From a virus, in the IMG/VR virus record IMGVR_UViG_3300036804_000175, positions 1-46,129 of that record: DNA of 46,129 bases. One strand, 5' to 3'. Shown piece by piece: positions 1,333-37,641 of the stretch. The stretch's first letter is position 1; each line of letters begins with the position of its first letter. A model generated the notes under the pieces. The model was not told where the DNA came from. It was given only the letters and a program-made list of their open reading frames with translations, and made no database searches. The position numbers were made by a program, and so were the translations under genes.

Positions 1333-2196
1333 TCAGATCTTTATCGGACCGTCGACATTGAAATCAAGGAGAACCGTGTGCTCGATCCCGTTTATGAACG
1401 CACGGTTGCACTCATCCCCGATATTGTACAGGCCAAAATCCACATGGCCATCACCGTTGCCGTTGAGCCGCCAGCCAACGATCTGGCCGGCTTGGCTTCG
1501 CTCGAGACCCAACGCCTCATACACCTCATTCAGGAATATGAAGCCGTGCGCCTGGAGCCGGTCGTTTGCCCAGTTCTGCTGAGATCTGAGAAACAGCAGG
1601 TTGTACTCTGGCGTTCTGGTCCAGTTGACGCTGGCCTCGTCGAAGAACCTTGCGTAAGGCGATGGCATCACATCGTCGTAGTCGATGACTTCGCCTTCTG
1701 TCCCGTCGTCCGTGACGCCTTTGACGGTACGGGCTCCGCGGTACAGGATTTCTTCCTTCTCGTCACCCAGAACTTCGGCAACACGACGGCGGTATGCCTT
1801 GTAGCCAGCGTCGAGAGCCGTATAGGCCGCGACGAGACTTGTCTGGCGCTGCAGCATCAGACCGTGCGCAGAGATCACGCAGACGACAGAAGCTGAGCCT
1901 GTGACCAGGACCGGCCAGTAGAGTTCTGCCAGCTTGACACTGCTCTTCAGGTAGACCTTGGTAAGTGCCTTCTGCTTCTCCACCCTTGGGGCATCCTGAG
2001 TGGCGTTCTTGACTTCGACGACATCCTTGGAGATCTCGGGGAAGACATCAGCAGCCTTTGCTGTGGCTCTGATGGTGAGTGCAGTGGTAATCGCGAAGCC
2101 GGCTATCCCGGCGCCGGTCAGGATTGTTGGGGCGTTCCGCTGCAGGAAGAACTTGGATGACCCAAGGATCCGGCTTGAGAGCAGTGACGAATTCAT
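1333..2196 (-). CDS. DUF6353-like membrane protein, copy A (287 aa)
   Basis: Member of the phage DUF6353-type family, recognised by the N-terminal pattern NAPTILTGAGIAGFAITTAL followed by a conserved second hydrophobic segment (PVLVTGSASVVCVISAHGL). It has two predicted membrane helices and a C-terminal soluble domain with FIFLNEVYEALGL and GWRLNG. The frame is open 35 codons further upstream, but the ATG at 2196 is preceded by AAGGGA at good spacing and starts the family-like sequence. Its function is not known. A paralog lies at 4965-5750, so the genome carries two copies of this rare family. Confidence 0.85.
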   Translation of the reverse strand: MNSSLLSSRILGSSKFFLQRNAPTILTGAGIAGFAITTALTIRATAKAADVFPEISKDVVEVKNATQDAPRVEKQKALTKVYLKSSVKLAELYWPVLVTGSASVVCVISAHGLMLQRQTSLVAAYTALDAGYKAYRRRVAEVLGDEKEEILYRGARTVKGVTDDGTEGEVIDYDDVMPSPYARFFDEASVNWTRTPEYNLLFLRSQQNWANDRLQAHGFIFLNEVYEALGLERSQAGQIVGWRLNGNGDGHVDFGLYNIGDECNRAFINGIEHTVLLDFNVDGPIKI

Positions 2197-2222
2197 CAGT
2201 GTCCCTTGGTTGTGAGACTGGG

Positions 2223-2411
2223 TTACCAGATCTCTTCGACTTTCATAACTGTGTATTTCAGGTAAATATTCCGTGGTACGCCGCTTCCAGGCACACCACA
2301 CTCGCCCTCTATGTGGTCGACCAGAGTATCCTCTATTACTGAAACCGGTACTGGCTGAAGTCCCCCGTTGTACGAAACCTCAGCCTGCACGCGGATAAGA
2401 TACTCTTTCAT
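2223..2411 (-). CDS. Small hypothetical protein (62 aa)
   Basis: A 62-residue protein of unknown function, with no membrane segment. It has a slightly acidic middle with EDTLVDHIEGECG and a C-terminal KVEEIW. It sits between the lipoprotein gene (4 bp away) and DUF6353 copy A, in the same direction, which supports it being a real gene of the operon. I recognise no motif. Confidence 0.6.
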   Translation of the reverse strand: MKEYLIRVQAEVSYNGGLQPVPVSVIEDTLVDHIEGECGVPGSGVPRNIYLKYTVMKVEEIW

Positions 2412-4761: not shown

Positions 4762-4790
4762 ATGGTGATGCTTGAAGCGCATCGGGCTTC

Positions 4791-4816
4791 ATTATAGGCC
4801 CTGTAATTCTCGCGAG
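4791..4816 (-). promoter_or_regulatory. Phage promoter-like motif, copy a
   Basis: Minus strand: CTCGCGA, 13-bp gap, TATAAT, then GAA. It lies between DUF6353 copy B and the 145-aa gene and is followed at once by hairpin 4731-4761. It shares both boxes and the exact gap with six other sites in the genome. An open frame without a clear start also covers this stretch (4705-4964), so part of it could be translated, but no usable start codon with a ribosome site is visible. Confidence 0.7.
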
Positions 4817-4964: not shown

Positions 4965-5750
4965 TTACATCTTCCCGTAATCGGCTCTTGGAAGATTTTT
5001 GTAGCTGATGGCGAGACAGGGCCGCCCGTCATCGGAAAGATGGGATGAGAAGACAAGATTGACGAGGTTGTCAACATTCCATCCCAGCTCATCGCCGATA
5101 GATACTGGACCCAAGTCCAGAATTTCATAGAAATCATTCTGGCTGGCATACATATCGCCGCCGATGATTCTCTGATTGAGCTCATTCTGGGCTTGTCTGA
5201 GCAGCTCGATGTCACTTTTGAAATACCGACCGGTCAGCGAGTCGTAGCACAGTTGATCACCCCCAGCGGTGACAATAACCGTCTGAGCCGAAACGGGGCG
5301 TTCTTCCATCTGCTTCTTGGTGATCTCGTCCCTGATCTTCTGCTCTTTGTTGTCACCCAGCTGCTTGACAACCTCGTCCTTGTACTCTCTGAAGGCTGTA
5401 TCGGCCAAGGTATACACGCCTAGCAGCGCAGCATTGCGCTTGAGACCCACCTGGTTTGCGCCGATGATGCACGCGATTGTGGCAGTGCCGGAGACGGCAG
5501 CAGGCAAATATGAACGCCATGCAACTTTGATTTCTTCGGCGATTGTCAGATCGTCCAGTTCCTGTTGCGGATCTGACATGTCGGTTTTCCCGACCTTGGT
5601 TATTGTCCTTGCCCGCATGACCTCTGGTGTTGCCCTGACAGCCAGGACCACGGTGGTGATTACACCGGCAACAGCGACACCCGACAGAATTGTTGGCGAG
5701 TTGTTTTTGAGCATGCGGCCGACCGCGTCTAGCCTTCTTGATGTATTCAT
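4965..5750 (-). CDS. DUF6353-like membrane protein, copy B (261 aa)
   Basis: Second member of the DUF6353-type family in this genome. Residues 18-38 give the family pattern (NNSPTILSGVAVAGVITTVV), and a second hydrophobic stretch (PAAVSGTATIACIIGANQV) follows at about 81-99, then GVYTLADTAFREYKDEV and a soluble C-terminus with NDFYEILDLGPVSIGDELGWN. It aligns in order with copy A at 1333-2196. ATG at 5750 has CAGGAGAGG just upstream. Terminator 5786-5805 precedes it, so expression needs read-through or another promoter. Role unknown. Confidence 0.85.
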   Translation of the reverse strand: MNTSRRLDAVGRMLKNNSPTILSGVAVAGVITTVVLAVRATPEVMRARTITKVGKTDMSDPQQELDDLTIAEEIKVAWRSYLPAAVSGTATIACIIGANQVGLKRNAALLGVYTLADTAFREYKDEVVKQLGDNKEQKIRDEITKKQMEERPVSAQTVIVTAGGDQLCYDSLTGRYFKSDIELLRQAQNELNQRIIGGDMYASQNDFYEILDLGPVSIGDELGWNVDNLVNLVFSSHLSDDGRPCLAISYKNLPRADYGKM

Positions 5751-5785
5751 GCTGCCTCTCCTGAAATATGGCCGGAGAAAAGCGT

Positions 5786-5805
5786 GAGCCCTTGTTACGG
5801 GGCTC
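5786..5805 (-). terminator. Terminator after the 65-aa membrane-protein gene
   Basis: GAGCCC (5786-5791) and GGGCTC (5800-5805) form a 6-bp stem with an 8-base loop; on the minus strand CGCTTTTCT follows. It lies just after the stop of the 65-aa gene and before DUF6353 copy B. Confidence 0.6.
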
Positions 5806-5811
5806 GGTGCT

Positions 5812-6009
5812 TTACTCCTCTGAATCGTTCTTGTCTTCGGGGATGATGGCGTCGTGGACACGGCCAGCGATCTTGCTGATGAGGACGTTCGCGGCAAGAC
5901 CAAGCGCGACAGTCACGGCAGTAGTGGCAACTACGGCGGTAACCTGGCGCTTGGTGCTAACAGCGGCGGTTTCATCCTGCTCGGTCTGCTGGGGGGCGGT
6001 CTGCTTCAT
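5812..6009 (-). CDS. Small single-pass membrane protein (65 aa)
   Basis: The hydrophilic N-terminus is rich in Gln, Glu and Thr. One membrane helix follows at about 24-45 (VTAVVATTAVTVALGLAANV), then a short charged tail ending DKNDSEE. ATG at 6009 has AGGAGAGG at good spacing; the longer frame upstream would start inside the promoter motif. The gene is a self-contained cassette: promoter copy b (6040-6065), gene, terminator 5786-5805. Function unknown; it could be a holin-like or envelope-modifying peptide. Confidence 0.7.
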   Translation of the reverse strand: MKQTAPQQTEQDETAAVSTKRQVTAVVATTAVTVALGLAANVLISKIAGRVHDAIIPEDKNDSEE

Positions 6010-6039
6010 TGCCTCTCCTAAAACACGATGTGGGGTTTC

Positions 6040-6065
6040 ACTATACCCCTTGTTTTTCTCGCGAG
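6040..6065 (-). promoter_or_regulatory. Phage promoter-like motif, copy b
   Basis: Minus strand: CTCGCGA, 13-bp gap, TATAGT, GAA. It directly precedes the 65-aa gene (start 6009) and comes straight after the terminator of the preceding cassette. Confidence 0.75.
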
Positions 6066-6098: not shown

Positions 6099-6284
6099 TT
6101 ACTCTTCATCGAGGGCGTAGAATTCGTCGAGCAGGTTCTTCTCCTTGAGGAACTCGTTGTGCTGACGCAAGCCAGCCTGCTGGGCAACGGCAACTGTCGC
6201 GGTGACGGCAAGTGCGGTGGCCAGGATGGCGGTCTTGTGACTTTCAAAATGAGTCTTCACGGATACAAGCTTCTGCTTTAGCAT
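6099..6284 (-). CDS. Small single-pass membrane protein (61 aa)
   Basis: A 61-residue protein with a basic N-terminus, one membrane helix at about 17-35 (TAILATALAVTATVAVAQ) and an acidic C-terminal helix with FLKEKNLLDEFYALDEE. ATG at 6284 has AAAGGA upstream. An in-frame ATG at 6311 lies inside the TATAAT box of promoter copy c and cannot be the start if that promoter is used. Cassette: promoter 6310-6335, gene, terminator 6075-6093. No function recognised. Confidence 0.7.
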   Translation of the reverse strand: MLKQKLVSVKTHFESHKTAILATALAVTATVAVAQQAGLRQHNEFLKEKNLLDEFYALDEE

Positions 6285-6309
6285 TACTTTTCCTTTCAGT
6301 TTGAGGTTC

Positions 6310-6335
6310 ATTATATGGCTTGTTTTTTTCGCGAG
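6310..6335 (-). promoter_or_regulatory. Phage promoter-like motif, copy c
   Basis: Minus strand: CTCGCGA, 13-bp gap (A-rich), TATAAT, GAA. It sits directly upstream of the 61-aa gene and directly downstream of terminator 6366-6393. Confidence 0.8.
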
Positions 6336-6728: not shown

Positions 6729-6751
6729 GGCATTCCTTTCGGTAGACTCTC

Positions 6752-6777
6752 ATTAGAGCCCATGTTTTTACCGCGAA
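6752..6777 (-). promoter_or_regulatory. Phage promoter-like motif, copy d
   Basis: Minus strand: TTCGCGG, 13-bp gap, TCTAAT, GAG. This is the most divergent copy, but gap and position are kept. It begins one base after the stop of the 89-aa gene and precedes the 100-aa gene. Confidence 0.65.
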
Positions 6778-30954: not shown

Positions 30955-30980
30955 GTCGCGGGAAAAACAGGGAGTATAAT
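30955..30980 (+). promoter_or_regulatory. Phage promoter-like motif, copy h (plus strand)
   Basis: Plus strand: GTCGCGG, 13-bp gap, TATAAT, GAA. It is the only plus-strand copy and sits 24 bp upstream of the only plus-strand gene, which is strong support that the motif is a promoter. Confidence 0.85.
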
Positions 30981-31004
30981 GAACCGACTAGTAAGGAGAA
31001 TAAA

Positions 31005-31223
31005 ATGGCTATACCAACTGAATGCCAGACACCTGGTGCGCAGTTCCGCACGCACATCAGCGAAGTCGCCGCAACAGTAAGCATTGAGTTCGGAAGAAAG
31101 ATTATCATGAGTGAGCATGAGGCTAGACTTCTGGAAGCAAACTTGCACAACGCGGCTGAGCTAGTGTTTGCCAGATACTATACATCAGATCAAACACAGC
31201 AAGTGCCAGAGATCACCCACTAG
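31005..31223 (+). CDS. Small protein, the only plus-strand gene (72 aa)
   Basis: The 72-residue protein has a helical C-terminal core with MSEHEARLLEANLHNAAEL and VFARYY. I recall a similar small phage protein with a LLE-x-NLHNA motif but no function. ATG at 31005 has AAGGAG upstream and follows promoter copy h; terminator 31230-31259 closes the unit. It divides the replication and structural blocks and runs against both. A regulator of the switch between them is conceivable but unproven. Confidence 0.8.
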   Translation: MAIPTECQTPGAQFRTHISEVAATVSIEFGRKIIMSEHEARLLEANLHNAAELVFARYYTSDQTQQVPEITH

Positions 31224-31229
31224 TCATCT

Positions 31230-31259
31230 AAGAGAGCTCGACAAGGGCTCTCTTTTTTT
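31230..31259 (+). terminator. Strong terminator of the plus-strand gene
   Basis: AGAGAGC pairs with GCTCTCT around a 9-base loop, followed by eight T residues. It begins 7 bp after the stop codon of the 72-aa gene. Confidence 0.9.
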
Positions 31260-31260
31260 C

Positions 31261-31538
31261 AGTGAAGAGGCAGGGCGGCCTCCAGGGACCTCTGCGGCCC
31301 GGGACAGCATGCCGTCCGAGGAAACGGCCCCGCCAACTTCGCTGCAGATCACAAGGTAGCTACAACCTGTAATCAGCGATCCTGGCACCACGTGTGAAAC
31401 GCCACGCCAGGAGCTAAATGATCTTGAACCTTCCCCGGGACATTCCCCCGGGGCATTTTTAGGCAGCGGGCGATGCAGGGTGGGGGTATGCTTTGCGAGC
31501 ACCCCCCGCCCTACCCTTATCATTCTTTTGAAGTTTGG
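31261..31538. ncRNA. GC-rich structured non-coding region, possible RNA or packaging site
   Basis: This 278-bp stretch has no supported gene and is clearly more GC-rich than its surroundings. It contains a row of hairpins: GGAC/GTCC (31302-31317), a 28-nt hairpin (31347-31374), TCCTGGC/GCCAGGA (about 31379-31411), CCCCGGG/CCCGGGG followed by CATTTTT on the plus strand (about 31433-31460), and a long G/C hairpin at about 31476-31514. In the 31347-31374 hairpin the minus-strand RNA has a G-U pair where the plus strand would have A-C, which favours a minus-strand RNA. The strand and function are not settled. Confidence 0.4.
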
Positions 31539-31799
31539 CTATGCTGCCTCTGCTGGCTTGCTTGCCTTCTTGTACATTCCATTGATGTTCATTTGACAGA
31601 TCTCGTCAATGGCTTGCTCGATAGATGAATCGATCTCCGTGTCTGGCAAATCAAGAGATACTTTTGAAATTCGTGCTAGTAGGCCAGGTGTGTCGTATCC
31701 TGCAGCACGATCCCATGAGTACCACTCATCGTAGTTCGTGAATGGATTCCATGGATTGTCAACAGTAGTTAGCATGTGCTCGACGTCGTCAACCATCAT
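31539..31799 (-). CDS. Small conserved partner downstream of phage RNA polymerase (86 aa)
   Basis: Acidic small protein with VEHMLTTVDNPWNPFTNYDE, WYSWDRAAGYDTPGLLARI and IEQAIDEICQMNINGMYKK. I recall this pattern directly after YonO-like polymerase genes in other phages. Its ATG overlaps the TGA of the polymerase gene, so the two are made together. It may be an accessory subunit of the polymerase; that is inference from conserved context. Confidence 0.8.
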   Translation of the reverse strand: MMVDDVEHMLTTVDNPWNPFTNYDEWYSWDRAAGYDTPGLLARISKVSLDLPDTEIDSSIEQAIDEICQMNINGMYKKASKPAEAA

Positions 31800-34456
31800 C
31801 CTCCTTCACGATGTAGTGCAGCGTTGAGTGTACTCACAGGTACGCCCAGCGAGTCCGCTATCTCTGCCTGGGTGTAACCAGATGCCAGCCTTGCTTTAGC
31901 TATAGCTAGCTTGGTAGAGGTCATCACTACCGAAGACCTAGGTGTGGCTAGTTCTCTAACACGATCAGCGTTAGCATTGTCTAGTATCTGACTGAGCTTG
32001 CTGCCACTGATGGCTCCTGCTTGGATCGCCTTCCACTCGGTATCAGTAATGCTAACCTGATTCTTCTTAGCGCCTACTCGTTCACGGGCAGCATTCAGCG
32101 CTTGGCCTTTGATCTTCTTAAGATCGGCGGCATCCATGTTGGGGTTATCCTGGCGCCTTGCTGTGACGATGGCGTTCGCCAGCAATTGTGCTTGACGTTC
32201 AAGAGGTTTATTCTTCAATGCTATGTTTAGTTTAGCATTGAGAGAGTTGACCTCAGAACGATACGTTTGTTTTGCGGTGGGGGAGTATTTCATAGATCCC
32301 GTTGACAGCGCTGCCTTTCGTGCTTCGTTTGCCAAAGATTTCAAAGCATTCGAATGATCAGCATAGATGTTCTCTATAGGCATGCCGCTTGACAAGGACC
32401 TAGCATCTTTGGCTTCAGCGAGTTTAGTGGATGATACGGTACGTACAATAGTACGGCCTTTAGCATCCTTGAACGACTCGCCTGTTTCTTCATAGACCTT
32501 TTGACCAGTCTTTGGATCTATAGGTCCACCTTTAGATGCAGATCTTAGTCTGCGATCAGGCACACGAACTTCAGAACTGGCTCTTGAAACAATGGTTGAT
32601 GCACCAGCCAGACGGCCTGTGGATCCACGGCCCTGATACTTCTCTTTAAGTGATGCAATTCCATTGTCGATGTAAGACTGCTTATAGTTTAGATTGTGCT
32701 TTTCGGCATCAATCACAACCATAGAATGACGGACTGCTCGAGCAAGTTCGTCAGGTCTGGCGCCCTTAATCGACATGTCTGTAATCAGGTTCGACACATC
32801 GCCCATCTGCTGTTGCTTTGCGCGTGCTGAGATAGGCTTCATGCCTTCATAGCCCGGATAACTTTCTTTGGGCTCGAAGCTCTTCAGTCCCGCGAGTGGT
32901 GCAGAAGTCTTGACTTCACGTTTGTTATTCGGTATAACGAGTACCGTATCGCCGTCAAAATCTGCGCCAGACAAACGTTCGGCCACTTTAGGATGAATGC
33001 CTACGGCATCTATCGCGTTGCCAAGAGCGGCCCTCGCATCGGCGTGTTTATTGTTTACCGTAACTTCCGGGATCTCGAACGGTCCGCCATGAGGAAAGCG
33101 AACTAGCGCTACCTTCTCACCATTACGGTAATTAGGCGCATAGACTTCGCCTTCTTTAAGTGTTTCGATTGGGAGAATTACATGAGTACCTTGTCGTGGC
33201 AGAGCAGCTGCTTTCAGATGCACAGATGCACTATCGGCACTATCAGCGAACTTTTCCAGAAGTGCCTTTCTCACCACTGGATTTGTGAGGCGTGTTATCT
33301 CGCTATACTCATCTCTGCGTGAGGCAAGAGCAAGATCCAGTTGGCGCCTCGCAAGGGCTGTGCTTTGTTTTGAAAGAACTTGACTAGACAGACTGCGACT
33401 CCAGTCTCTCCAGTCACCTTCTTCATTAACAATGTTCATTGGTGAAAGACGGCGCTTACCAGAAGAGTCCGTATAATGCCTCTGACGAACTGTGGCCCCA
33501 AACGGGTTGTCTTCTTCTTTTTGCGGCTTCATAGCGTCGAGCTTGTTGCCAGTGTTTCGCTTATTTGTGTTAAACATAAGATCTGTCCCAGCAGGCAGAT
33601 CATTCTTGTACATCGCCATACCTTTGAGGTAATGTGTACCGTCTACGGCGATGCGAACTTGTGCGTATCTCGATGCACCAAGTGAGATGTCATGAACACC
33701 GGGGCGCACGTAGATGACTCCATCGGCTTTGGCACCGCCGTCTTCGGCGTAGCGAACACCAATACGGCTAGAATTGACGTTGCGAGGAGGCTGGATACCG
33801 AGATATGTATGGCCGCCATCTTCGCTATATGCGGCAACCGACTTGATTCGTTCTGGGTTCTTGACGATGTCGACATACTTCGTTCCTGGTGGTGCAAGAA
33901 CCTTGATTGTGGTCTTTTTGCCCGTTCCGAGCTGATCGACCTGGACATTATGAACTTCAAAACCTTCTTCGCGAAGAACAGCGACAGATGTCGCAAGCTT
34001 AGTTGCAGTAATACCCAGATGGTTTTCTGTGCCTGCGCCTATGTCAAGGTATTTATCTTTGCCGACTTTGTCACGAAGCAGGTTAGATGTTGTTATTAGA
34101 ACATCTTTCCTGTCCGCGGTTGAGGGATTAAGCAATGCACGAACAGAGGACTCATTGATTCCACCTAGTCGTTCGCCAATAGCGGCATTTGACATTCCTT
34201 TTGCTTTTAGTCGAACAGCTTGCGCCGTATCAGCAGCACGAGTTTCGTTCTTAGCTATTGCTCTGGCAGCACGAAGAGCAGTTGTTGAAGTACTGAAACC
34301 AGCAGCGATCTGTGTTTCAGAGAGACCTTTTGATTTCAGGTCTTCAACATAACTCAGAAAGTTGCGGCTTTGCTCTACGCTTTGCCCTGATCCCCAGGGA
34401 TAACGGCCTGACCGGCGAAGAACGCCGTAGTGGTAAAGCTCTGCAGTATCGGTCAC
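31796..34456 (-). CDS. YonO-like phage-encoded RNA polymerase (886 aa)
   Basis: Probable single-chain DNA-directed RNA polymerase of the YonO/QDE-1-like double-psi beta-barrel class. The key site is GADFDGDTVLVIP (497-509), with the three metal-binding Asp residues 499, 501 and 503. Flanking family motifs: RFPHGGPFEIPEV (453-465) and SNLITDMSIKGARPDELARA (555-574) followed by RHSMVVIDAEKH. The N-terminus has two helix-turn-helix-like segments (about 37-70 and 78-110) and the C-terminus a third (YTQAEIADSLGVPVSTLNAA). It probably transcribes part of the phage genome. Enzyme activity is inferred from motifs. Confidence 0.8.
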   Translation of the reverse strand: MTDTAELYHYGVLRRSGRYPWGSGQSVEQSRNFLSYVEDLKSKGLSETQIAAGFSTSTTALRAARAIAKNETRAADTAQAVRLKAKGMSNAAIGERLGGINESSVRALLNPSTADRKDVLITTSNLLRDKVGKDKYLDIGAGTENHLGITATKLATSVAVLREEGFEVHNVQVDQLGTGKKTTIKVLAPPGTKYVDIVKNPERIKSVAAYSEDGGHTYLGIQPPRNVNSSRIGVRYAEDGGAKADGVIYVRPGVHDISLGASRYAQVRIAVDGTHYLKGMAMYKNDLPAGTDLMFNTNKRNTGNKLDAMKPQKEEDNPFGATVRQRHYTDSSGKRRLSPMNIVNEEGDWRDWSRSLSSQVLSKQSTALARRQLDLALASRRDEYSEITRLTNPVVRKALLEKFADSADSASVHLKAAALPRQGTHVILPIETLKEGEVYAPNYRNGEKVALVRFPHGGPFEIPEVTVNNKHADARAALGNAIDAVGIHPKVAERLSGADFDGDTVLVIPNNKREVKTSAPLAGLKSFEPKESYPGYEGMKPISARAKQQQMGDVSNLITDMSIKGARPDELARAVRHSMVVIDAEKHNLNYKQSYIDNGIASLKEKYQGRGSTGRLAGASTIVSRASSEVRVPDRRLRSASKGGPIDPKTGQKVYEETGESFKDAKGRTIVRTVSSTKLAEAKDARSLSSGMPIENIYADHSNALKSLANEARKAALSTGSMKYSPTAKQTYRSEVNSLNAKLNIALKNKPLERQAQLLANAIVTARRQDNPNMDAADLKKIKGQALNAARERVGAKKNQVSITDTEWKAIQAGAISGSKLSQILDNANADRVRELATPRSSVVMTSTKLAIAKARLASGYTQAEIADSLGVPVSTLNAALHREGG

Positions 34457-35010
34457 TACCCCCCCACTTTCATGTTCTCGATGTGCTGATCGAACACTAT
34501 TATCTTGCTCATGATATGAGCGACAGTGTCAACTTCAGGAATTGCAACCTGAATGTCATCGTTTTGATAGATTCTGAGTTCTATCTCAATTGCACCTGGC
34601 TTACAGGCATACTCGAGACAGAACAGCGCTGCATAAATTTCAAGCTGATGAACTGACCCATTAACCGCACCGGTCTTCAGGTCATGAATTCGCAAAAGAT
34701 CTTTAGAGAAAGAAATAGCGTCAGAAGTGCCAAAACAATTAGGCGAATAGAAGAGAACTTGCTCAGTAGTCATGCGGTAACCTATTGCATCATTGACGTA
34801 CATGTTAAGCGTCTTGCTAGATCGCGGAAGTTTAATGCCCAGGCGAATCGCATTGTGAGCGAAAGCGTGAAGCTCAGTTCCTCTTCTTGCTGCTTGTGCA
34901 TTAGTGTAAGACTCAGCCAGCTTGTCTGCGTCGTAGTTTATCCAGTGATACTTGCTGGCGGACAGAAAGGCGTGCTGGCCTACGAGATCCAAATGCGAGT
35001 TGAAGTTCAT
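34456..35010 (-). CDS. RecB/Cas4-like PD-(D/E)XK nuclease (184 aa)
   Basis: Nuclease core in order: HAFLSASKYHW (13-23), RGTELHAFA (His48), GTSDA with Asp97, IHDLKTG with Asp110/Lys112 and QLEIYA with Gln122/Tyr126. This GTxD - DxK - QxxxY series is the RecB/Cas4 exonuclease signature. There is no four-cysteine iron-sulfur site as in true Cas4. It likely acts in phage recombination or replication. ATG at 35010 is preferred; 35019 is an alternative. Its end touches the polymerase start. Confidence 0.8.
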   Translation of the reverse strand: MNFNSHLDLVGQHAFLSASKYHWINYDADKLAESYTNAQAARRGTELHAFAHNAIRLGIKLPRSSKTLNMYVNDAIGYRMTTEQVLFYSPNCFGTSDAISFSKDLLRIHDLKTGAVNGSVHQLEIYAALFCLEYACKPGAIEIELRIYQNDDIQVAIPEVDTVAHIMSKIIVFDQHIENMKVGG

Positions 35011-35224
35011 GCAGGACATCTTTCTCGTTTGCGCAGTTGATGAATGATGCAAAAGACATGGCATCCATCAAATCCACGTAATATTCCTGATTAGGCTGCA
35101 GTGGAGATCTGGGACTGTCCTTGCATTCGAGTGCGGCCCACATACTACGCCATAGCACAAGAAGGTCGGGAACACCTTGAAGATAGTTGGGATCATTCTT
35201 CAGTATTACGCAGCCCGGAAACAT
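34913..35224 (-). CDS. VRR-NUC-like nuclease (103 aa, probably longer)
   Basis: Small PD-(D/E)XK nuclease of the VRR-NUC (Holliday-junction resolvase-like) type: GVPDLLVLW with Asp20, WAALECKDS with Glu33/Lys35, then QPNQEYYVDLMDAMSFASF. Residues upstream of the first ATG, ESQFQASIINKLRN, continue in frame and look like the family's N-terminus, beginning right after an ATA codon at 35269 that has GGGGGTGA at good spacing. The real protein may be 118 residues with ATA as start. Overlaps the next nuclease gene by 98 bases. Confidence 0.75.
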   Translation of the reverse strand: MFPGCVILKNDPNYLQGVPDLLVLWRSMWAALECKDSPRSPLQPNQEYYVDLMDAMSFASFINCANEKDVLHELQLAFGSRRPARLSVRQQVSLDKLRRRQAG

Positions 35225-35401: not shown

Positions 35402-35422
35402 CACCTCGCTTAACAAAAGATC

Positions 35423-35456
35423 AGAGGACCAGTCTGCTAATTAGCAGGCGTCCTCT
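35423..35456 (-). terminator. Hairpin with T-run right after promoter copy f
   Basis: On the minus strand AGAGGAC and GTCCTCT form an outer 7-bp stem and CTGCT/AGCAG an inner stem; GATCTTTTGTT follows. It starts within a few bases of the transcription start expected from promoter 35466-35491, so the promoter would make an RNA of roughly 45 nt unless read-through occurs. Confidence 0.65.
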
Positions 35457-35465
35457 ATTCCTTCT

Positions 35466-35491
35466 ATTATAGTCCCAGATTTTCTCGCGAG
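35466..35491 (-). promoter_or_regulatory. Phage promoter-like motif, copy f
   Basis: Minus strand: CTCGCGA, 13-bp gap, TATAAT, then AGAA. It lies upstream of hairpin 35423-35456 and of the nuclease and RNA polymerase genes, and could drive them if the hairpin is passed. Confidence 0.8.
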
Positions 35492-37590: not shown

Positions 37591-37615
37591 GTCTGTTCCT
37601 TTCAGTAATGGGTTC

Positions 37616-37641
37616 ATTATAGGACCAGTAAAACCTGCGAA
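37616..37641 (-). promoter_or_regulatory. Phage promoter-like motif, copy g
   Basis: Minus strand: TTCGCAG, 13-bp gap, TATAAT, GAA. The left box is the weakest match but the gap and the TATAATGAA end are perfect. It directly precedes the 83-aa gene. Confidence 0.7.

Follow-up and report, generated by a model that had tools for sequence, protein, structure and literature searches.

The single-chain two-barrel RNA polymerase YonO of the Bacillus prophage SPbeta was described with its promoter sequence stated as undetermined and left for further work (Forrest et al. 2017, PMC5467207). For the Thermus phage P23-45, which has a non-virion (gp64) and a virion (gp96) RNA polymerase, promoter motifs were inferred from the presence or absence of each enzyme; one is AT-rich and the other a loosely conserved GC-rich motif, and the virion enzyme forms part of a fusion with the tape measure protein (Chaban et al. 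2024, PMC10770324). For the PHROG 4291 family and its member orf75 of Lactococcus phage 1706, no promoter was assigned in the searched literature; the labels in use are structural protein, HTH protein, and RNA-dependent RNA polymerase. QDE-1, the eukaryotic RNA-silencing polymerase, also carries two barrels in one chain in a different biological setting, and we know of no promoter of the kind described below for it.

Here we describe a PHROG 4291 polymerase encoded by a 46,129-bp phage contig, which was analysed over its whole length and is referred to as the window. A 30-letter motif recurring before many of the phage genes is very probably a start signal read by this polymerase, and, as judged by sequence comparison, polymerase and motif go together in hundreds of related phages. 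The features of the locus are collected in Table 1.

The polymerase and its genomic neighbourhood

The window has a direct terminal overlap of 127 bp, consistent with a complete circular assembly. Its minus-strand gene order is that of Streptomyces phage Scap1: HNH, endolysin, terminase, portal, protease, tail genes, and small genes, followed by DNA polymerase, annealing protein, helicase, endonuclease, exonuclease, RNA polymerase, and a gene for an 86-aa protein. The GTG start of the polymerase ORF overlaps the stop codon of the upstream exonuclease gene, while its own stop codon overlaps the ATG of the 86-aa gene. In linear isolates, the polymerase and the 86-aa gene are typically found at the right genome end. 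Two DUF6353 proteins are encoded in the right arm of the window (1333-2301 and 4965-5903, minus strand), and Faecalibacterium phage FP_oengus also has several DUF6353 genes.

The protein matches the PHROG 4291 profile over residues 3-883 of 886 (E=0). Alignment of 44 relatives shows that the aspartates D499, D501, and D503 of its DFDGD motif are invariant, and no second DxDGD occurs anywhere in the window. Comparison with Foldseek of an AlphaFold2 model built with these relatives (mean pLDDT of 80.6) gave QDE-1 as the best match (2j7n, E=1.3e-9, ~11% identity), together with the Thermus phage enzymes P23-45 gp64 (8f72, E=1.1e-7) and P74 gp62 (8f5m, E=1.9e-7). The Foldseek probability for a fold like that of QDE-1 and P23-45 gp64 is 1.00, with low global TM-scores of 0.23-0.36, and the matched P23-45 chains comprise ~590 residues as against 886 here. 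Direct sequence searches of the PDB returned nothing, or HTH and helical-repeat matches only. At the level of its predicted fold and active site, the protein is a single-chain two-barrel RNA polymerase, in agreement with the first-pass annotation, which had recognised a double-psi beta-barrel enzyme from the DFDGD motif. The term YonO-like used there holds for the class, as both proteins are single-chain two-barrel phage RNA polymerases of ~100 kDa with an essential aspartate triad (PMC5467207), but not for sequence homology, which was not detectable when the family profile was compared with YonO as a single sequence (hhalign probability of 4%).

Among 50,697 records of isolate phages, 250 contain a family member, in every case at less than 60% identity. 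These ~250 records are labelled 'RNA-dependent RNA polymerase', 'helix-turn-helix DNA-binding domain protein', or hypothetical. The first label, given by PHROG 4291 and RefSeq, and the best fold match to QDE-1 would both agree with an RNA-dependent enzyme that has no role at DNA promoters. We regard this as very improbable, since the characterised phage single-chain two-barrel enzymes, YonO and that of P23-45, transcribe DNA (PMC5467207, PMC10770324) and such an enzyme would leave unexplained the tight link to a promoter-like DNA element before genes. From its class, the polymerase is expected to be DNA-dependent.

Beside the C-terminal HTH, which resembles sigma-70 region 4, the model and weak profile matches suggest two more HTHs near the N-terminus. 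The N-terminus also bears a conserved tag, L.HYGxxRxSGRYPWGSG (34389-34435, minus strand), loosely like HYGIKGMKWGVRR in Scap1 and FP_oengus proteins. It is a possible virion-targeting signal; a search for HYGxxRxSGRYPWGSG in virion proteins gave loose look-alikes only.

Table 1. Features of the polymerase locus and motif copies in the window
Feature	Position	Strand	Remarks
Single-chain two-barrel (double-psi beta-barrel) RNA polymerase, 886 aa, PHROG 4291	31796..34456	-	profile, model, and fold matches
Catalytic DFDGD codons, residues 499-503	32948..32962	-	D499/D501/D503 invariant
Predicted N-terminal HTH 1, residues 44-72	34241..34327	-	pattern, conservation, and model helices 47-53 and 58-85
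Predicted N-terminal HTH 2, residues 82-110	34127..34213	-	Pfam HTH_28 78-107 (weak, E=0.017); PHROG 3855 HTH 70-106
C-terminal HTH, sigma-70-region-4-like, residues 845-884	31805..31924	-	Pfam HTH_23 E=1.3e-9, Sigma70_r4_2 E=1.7e-7
86-aa partner protein, PHROG 4303	31539..31799	-	alpha/beta model
Exonuclease, PHROG 3953	34456..35064	-	same operon as polymerase, upstream of it
Endonuclease homologue	34913..35224	-	first conserved gene of operon; labelled 'endonuclease' in Scap1, Mudcat, ReqiPepy6
Leader hairpin (terminator/attenuator-like), directly downstream of operon promoter	35412..35465	-	-23.1 kcal/mol, z=-4.4; conserved in relatives
Motif copy (putative promoter), TATAATAGAAGG form, upstream of polymerase operon	35461..35491	-	31.8 bits
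Motif copy	37611..37641	-	26.5 bits
Motif copy	6747..6777	-	36.8 bits
Motif copy, upstream of ORF 6099-6311	6305..6335	-	36.0 bits
Motif copy, upstream of ORF 4965-5903 (DUF6353)	6035..6065	-	36.9 bits
Motif copy	4786..4816	-	36.3 bits
Motif copy, opposite direction, before small divergent unit	30955..30985	+	32.6 bits
72-aa ORF with own Shine-Dalgarno, downstream of + strand motif	31005..31223	+	no PHROG match
Intrinsic-terminator-like hairpin and T-run, end of divergent unit	31229..31261	+	read from sequence

The motif and its co-occurrence with the polymerase

The promoter-like motif noticed in the first-pass annotation is real, although the element is not the 8-bp palindrome CTCGCGAG but a rigid sequence of ~30 bp, YTCGCRnnAAAAACAnnnnCTATAATGARA. 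Scoring with a 31-bp weight matrix built from relatives (consensus YTCGCRnnAAAAACAtGgccTATAATGARA) and a threshold of at least 15 bits revealed seven sites in the window, against 0.05 expected from shuffles, and eight sites in Scap1, against zero expected. Taken alone, the exact palindrome is weak, with three window copies against 1.0 expected, a number reached in 5 of 100 shuffles. It was rejected as a functional unit, being a part of the 30-bp element that is not conserved in relatives, where the box reads YTCGCRnn. No report of the motif was found in open-licence PMC articles, and the matrix gave nothing convincing on 49 kb of SPbeta.

No site falls within the structural operon in four near-complete genomes (the window, G002, G004, and Scap1), and 38 of their 39 sites are oriented with the genes, the exception being the plus-strand site at 30955 of the window. 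The segment 30955-31261 (plus strand) has the layout of a complete divergent mini-unit of promoter, ORF, and terminator, near the genome end and opposite to the other genes. The geometry of the element is fixed: box and block are 14 nt apart at 154 distinct sites, while each other spacing from 8 to 21 nt is represented by 1-10 sites. These counts were made in loci fetched by the polymerase, since those fetched by the motif, through a pattern of fixed spacing, are biased.

Among 2.9 million virus contigs, TCGCNNNNAAAACANNNNNTATAATGA matched at least 120 stretches, as against 4 for the reversed pattern. The polymerase is present in 46 of the 50 distinct contigs of at least 35 kb fetched by the motif alone, and in none of 14 control genomes. 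The four contigs with the motif and without the polymerase (G037, G041, G045, and G052), like G001 from an earlier motif scan, have neither the adjacent endonuclease nor the exonuclease gene; they were on this ground set aside as fragments rather than true motif-only phages. Among the motif-fetched contigs, no complete genome was found that carries the motif and lacks the polymerase.

In the reverse direction, a profile search of bacterial genomes yielded 80 independent polymerase loci, mostly in Clostridia assemblies and none of them used to build the matrix. A motif of at least 15 bits lies upstream of the gene in 76 of them (99th percentile of shuffles, 12.5), nearly always at ~0.9-1.1 kb, and three of the four loci below the threshold show a visibly divergent motif. 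Titles of metagenome-assembled genomes (Bacteroides, Alphaproteobacteria, and others) may reflect misbinning and were left out as host evidence. Co-occurrence, named in the first-pass annotation as a check on its pairing of polymerase and motif, thus speaks for that pairing.

All carriers are members of a single broad phage lineage with terminase, DNA polymerase, and exonuclease in common, and co-occurrence by itself therefore does not identify the polymerase as the reader. Motif and polymerase might be linked by shared descent only, with another lineage-wide phage protein reading the motif, and the many common core genes of the carriers do include unknown right-arm proteins. However, the core proteins without known function match DUF6353, PHROG 4079, or tail-chaperone families and not DNA-binding ones, and no sigma factor or recognised regulator was seen among the right-arm genes kept in all seven genomes compared. 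The polymerase is the sole transcription enzyme recognised among the core genes, and a phage polymerase needs a promoter. We consider a different reader improbable. The case for the polymerase is carried by the fixed spacing, a clade-linked change of the block, the start geometry, and a core in which no other transcription factor was recognised.

The TATAAT block and the probable transcription start

In the window and the actinophage branch, the TATAAT block resembles the host -10 box. This match to the -10 hexamer and the three exact CTCGCGAG palindromes of the window agree with transcription by the host RNA polymerase, an alternative raised in the first-pass annotation together with a phage activator or repressor on the palindrome. 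Here the housekeeping sigma factor would read TATAAT, and a phage regulator at the TCGCR/CTCGCGAG box would help or block. The second A of a sigma-A -10 element is expected to stay conserved. Mapping the block on a tree of 112 polymerases shows that a 53-member clade (support of 100) has T or G at the second base, with one exception, and the block there reads TTTTAT or TGTTAT; outside this clade the base is mostly A, with C or G in a few. The TATAAT-type (A) state takes 4 changes on the polymerase tree, compared to 35 in shuffles. Lachnospiraceae assemblies carry both forms of the block, and of the 11 sites in FP_oengus, nearly all are of the [CT]TTAT type and none retains TATAAT. A block that changes from TATAAT to TTTTAT or TGTTAT in one clade would not be a sigma-A -10 element. 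Moreover, the motif alignment contains no conserved -35 hexamer; the first-pass annotation had called the motif unlike host -35/-10 promoters. The arrangement TTGACn-N17-TATAAT occurs 0 times in 2.3 Mb of motif-fetched loci and 4 times in polymerase-anchored loci, near the level of other spacings.

The position of the start is indicated by structures that follow the block. Among 851 sites, terminator-like hairpins with the 5' arm at most 5 nt from the block number 61, against 8.2 expected, while those beginning at 7 nt or later number 13, against 9.2 expected; tRNA-like genes start -1, +2, +5, and +9 after the block. Because hairpins and tRNA-like genes lie right after the block, its first downstream nucleotides should be transcribed, and we infer a start at or just before the conserved purine directly after the block, not 7 nt later. 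The position of the Shine-Dalgarno sequence is suggestive only in this respect, the hairpins being the stronger test. In five relatives (L206, L256, L153, L257, and L299), tRNA or tRNA-like genes begin at the promoter block or a few nt from it, and their 5' ends pair with the arm before the T-run, as if the tRNA-like body were placed within a terminator stem.

In 53 leaders of polymerase operons, the mean folding energy is -13.6 kcal/mol, compared to -8.1 kcal/mol for shuffles, and the hairpin is usually followed by T's. The leader hairpin is likely an attenuator of the polymerase operon.

Taken together, the loss of the second A across a large clade, the lack of a -35 hexamer, and the intolerance to changes in spacing argue against reading by the host polymerase, as does a start placed directly after the block. 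The non-palindromic YTCGCRnn box of relatives and the lack of a conserved recognised regulator in the core argue against the accessory factor. We judge this alternative improbable.

Proposed promoter recognition and virion carriage

The comparative data strongly support initiation by the phage polymerase at the motif. It appears very probable that this single-chain two-barrel DNA-dependent enzyme initiates at a ~30-bp phage promoter, YTCGCR-nn-AAAAACA-n4-C-TATAAT-RARA. With the start at the purine following TATAAT or TTTTAT, the block would occupy roughly -6 to -1, with the AAAAACA box at around -18 to -12 and the TCGCR box further upstream at around -25 to -21. Such promoters would precede the small right-arm genes and the polymerase operon, whereas no motif copy precedes the late structural genes. 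Transcripts of the operon would probably be attenuated at the hairpin immediately after its promoter.

Recognition would probably be achieved by the HTHs of the polymerase itself, two N-terminal and one C-terminal, perhaps with the 86-aa partner. In a variant compatible with this mechanism, the polymerase transcribes and the 86-aa protein, as a dedicated specificity subunit, mainly recognises the promoter. In number (250 phage records) and host spread, the carriers of the 86-aa gene equal those of the polymerase. The gene is kept in 7 of 7 genomes compared and overlaps the polymerase stop codon in the window, and its product is a serious candidate for a co-factor. As a promoter reader it seems rather unlikely, although clearly less so than the host polymerase, because its model, a small alpha/beta fold, matches nothing in the PDB and shows no recognisable DNA-binding domain, while the polymerase has HTH modules of its own.

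A polymerase operon under its own promoter class poses a start-up problem, which would be solved if the enzyme is carried in the virion, as RNA polymerases of the crAss, N4, and P23-45 gp96 type are. The homologue orf75 of Lactococcus phage 1706, a PHROG 4291 member with an 86-aa neighbour as in the window, was named 'structural protein' in its original GenBank record, and the name is repeated as a note in the ReqiPepy6 record. This one deposited annotation suggests the presence of the polymerase in the virion. If the label goes back to proteomics of the virion, the enzyme is delivered together with the DNA and expression of its operon could begin. The fuller picture is that phages and prophages of Actinobacteria, Clostridia, and Lactococcus use a virion-carried, sigma-free polymerase whose three own HTHs recognise a promoter of 30 bp, that transcription starts immediately downstream of a TATA-like block, and that own-operon transcripts meet an immediate expression-tuning hairpin; we put this picture forward tentatively, at somewhat less than an even chance of holding in all its parts.

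How single-chain two-barrel polymerases find promoters without sigma factors is a general question that this pair of polymerase and motif addresses. Hundreds of genomes, ~250 sequenced isolate phages among them, define a sharp promoter, its spacing, and a probable start, and the change from TATAAT to TTTTAT would be a natural specificity switch that follows the enzyme clade. The pair makes promoter recognition by this class of enzymes directly testable, and, being compact, may serve as an orthogonal tool in Gram-positive hosts. For the PHROG 4291 family, now mislabelled, it provides a re-annotation.
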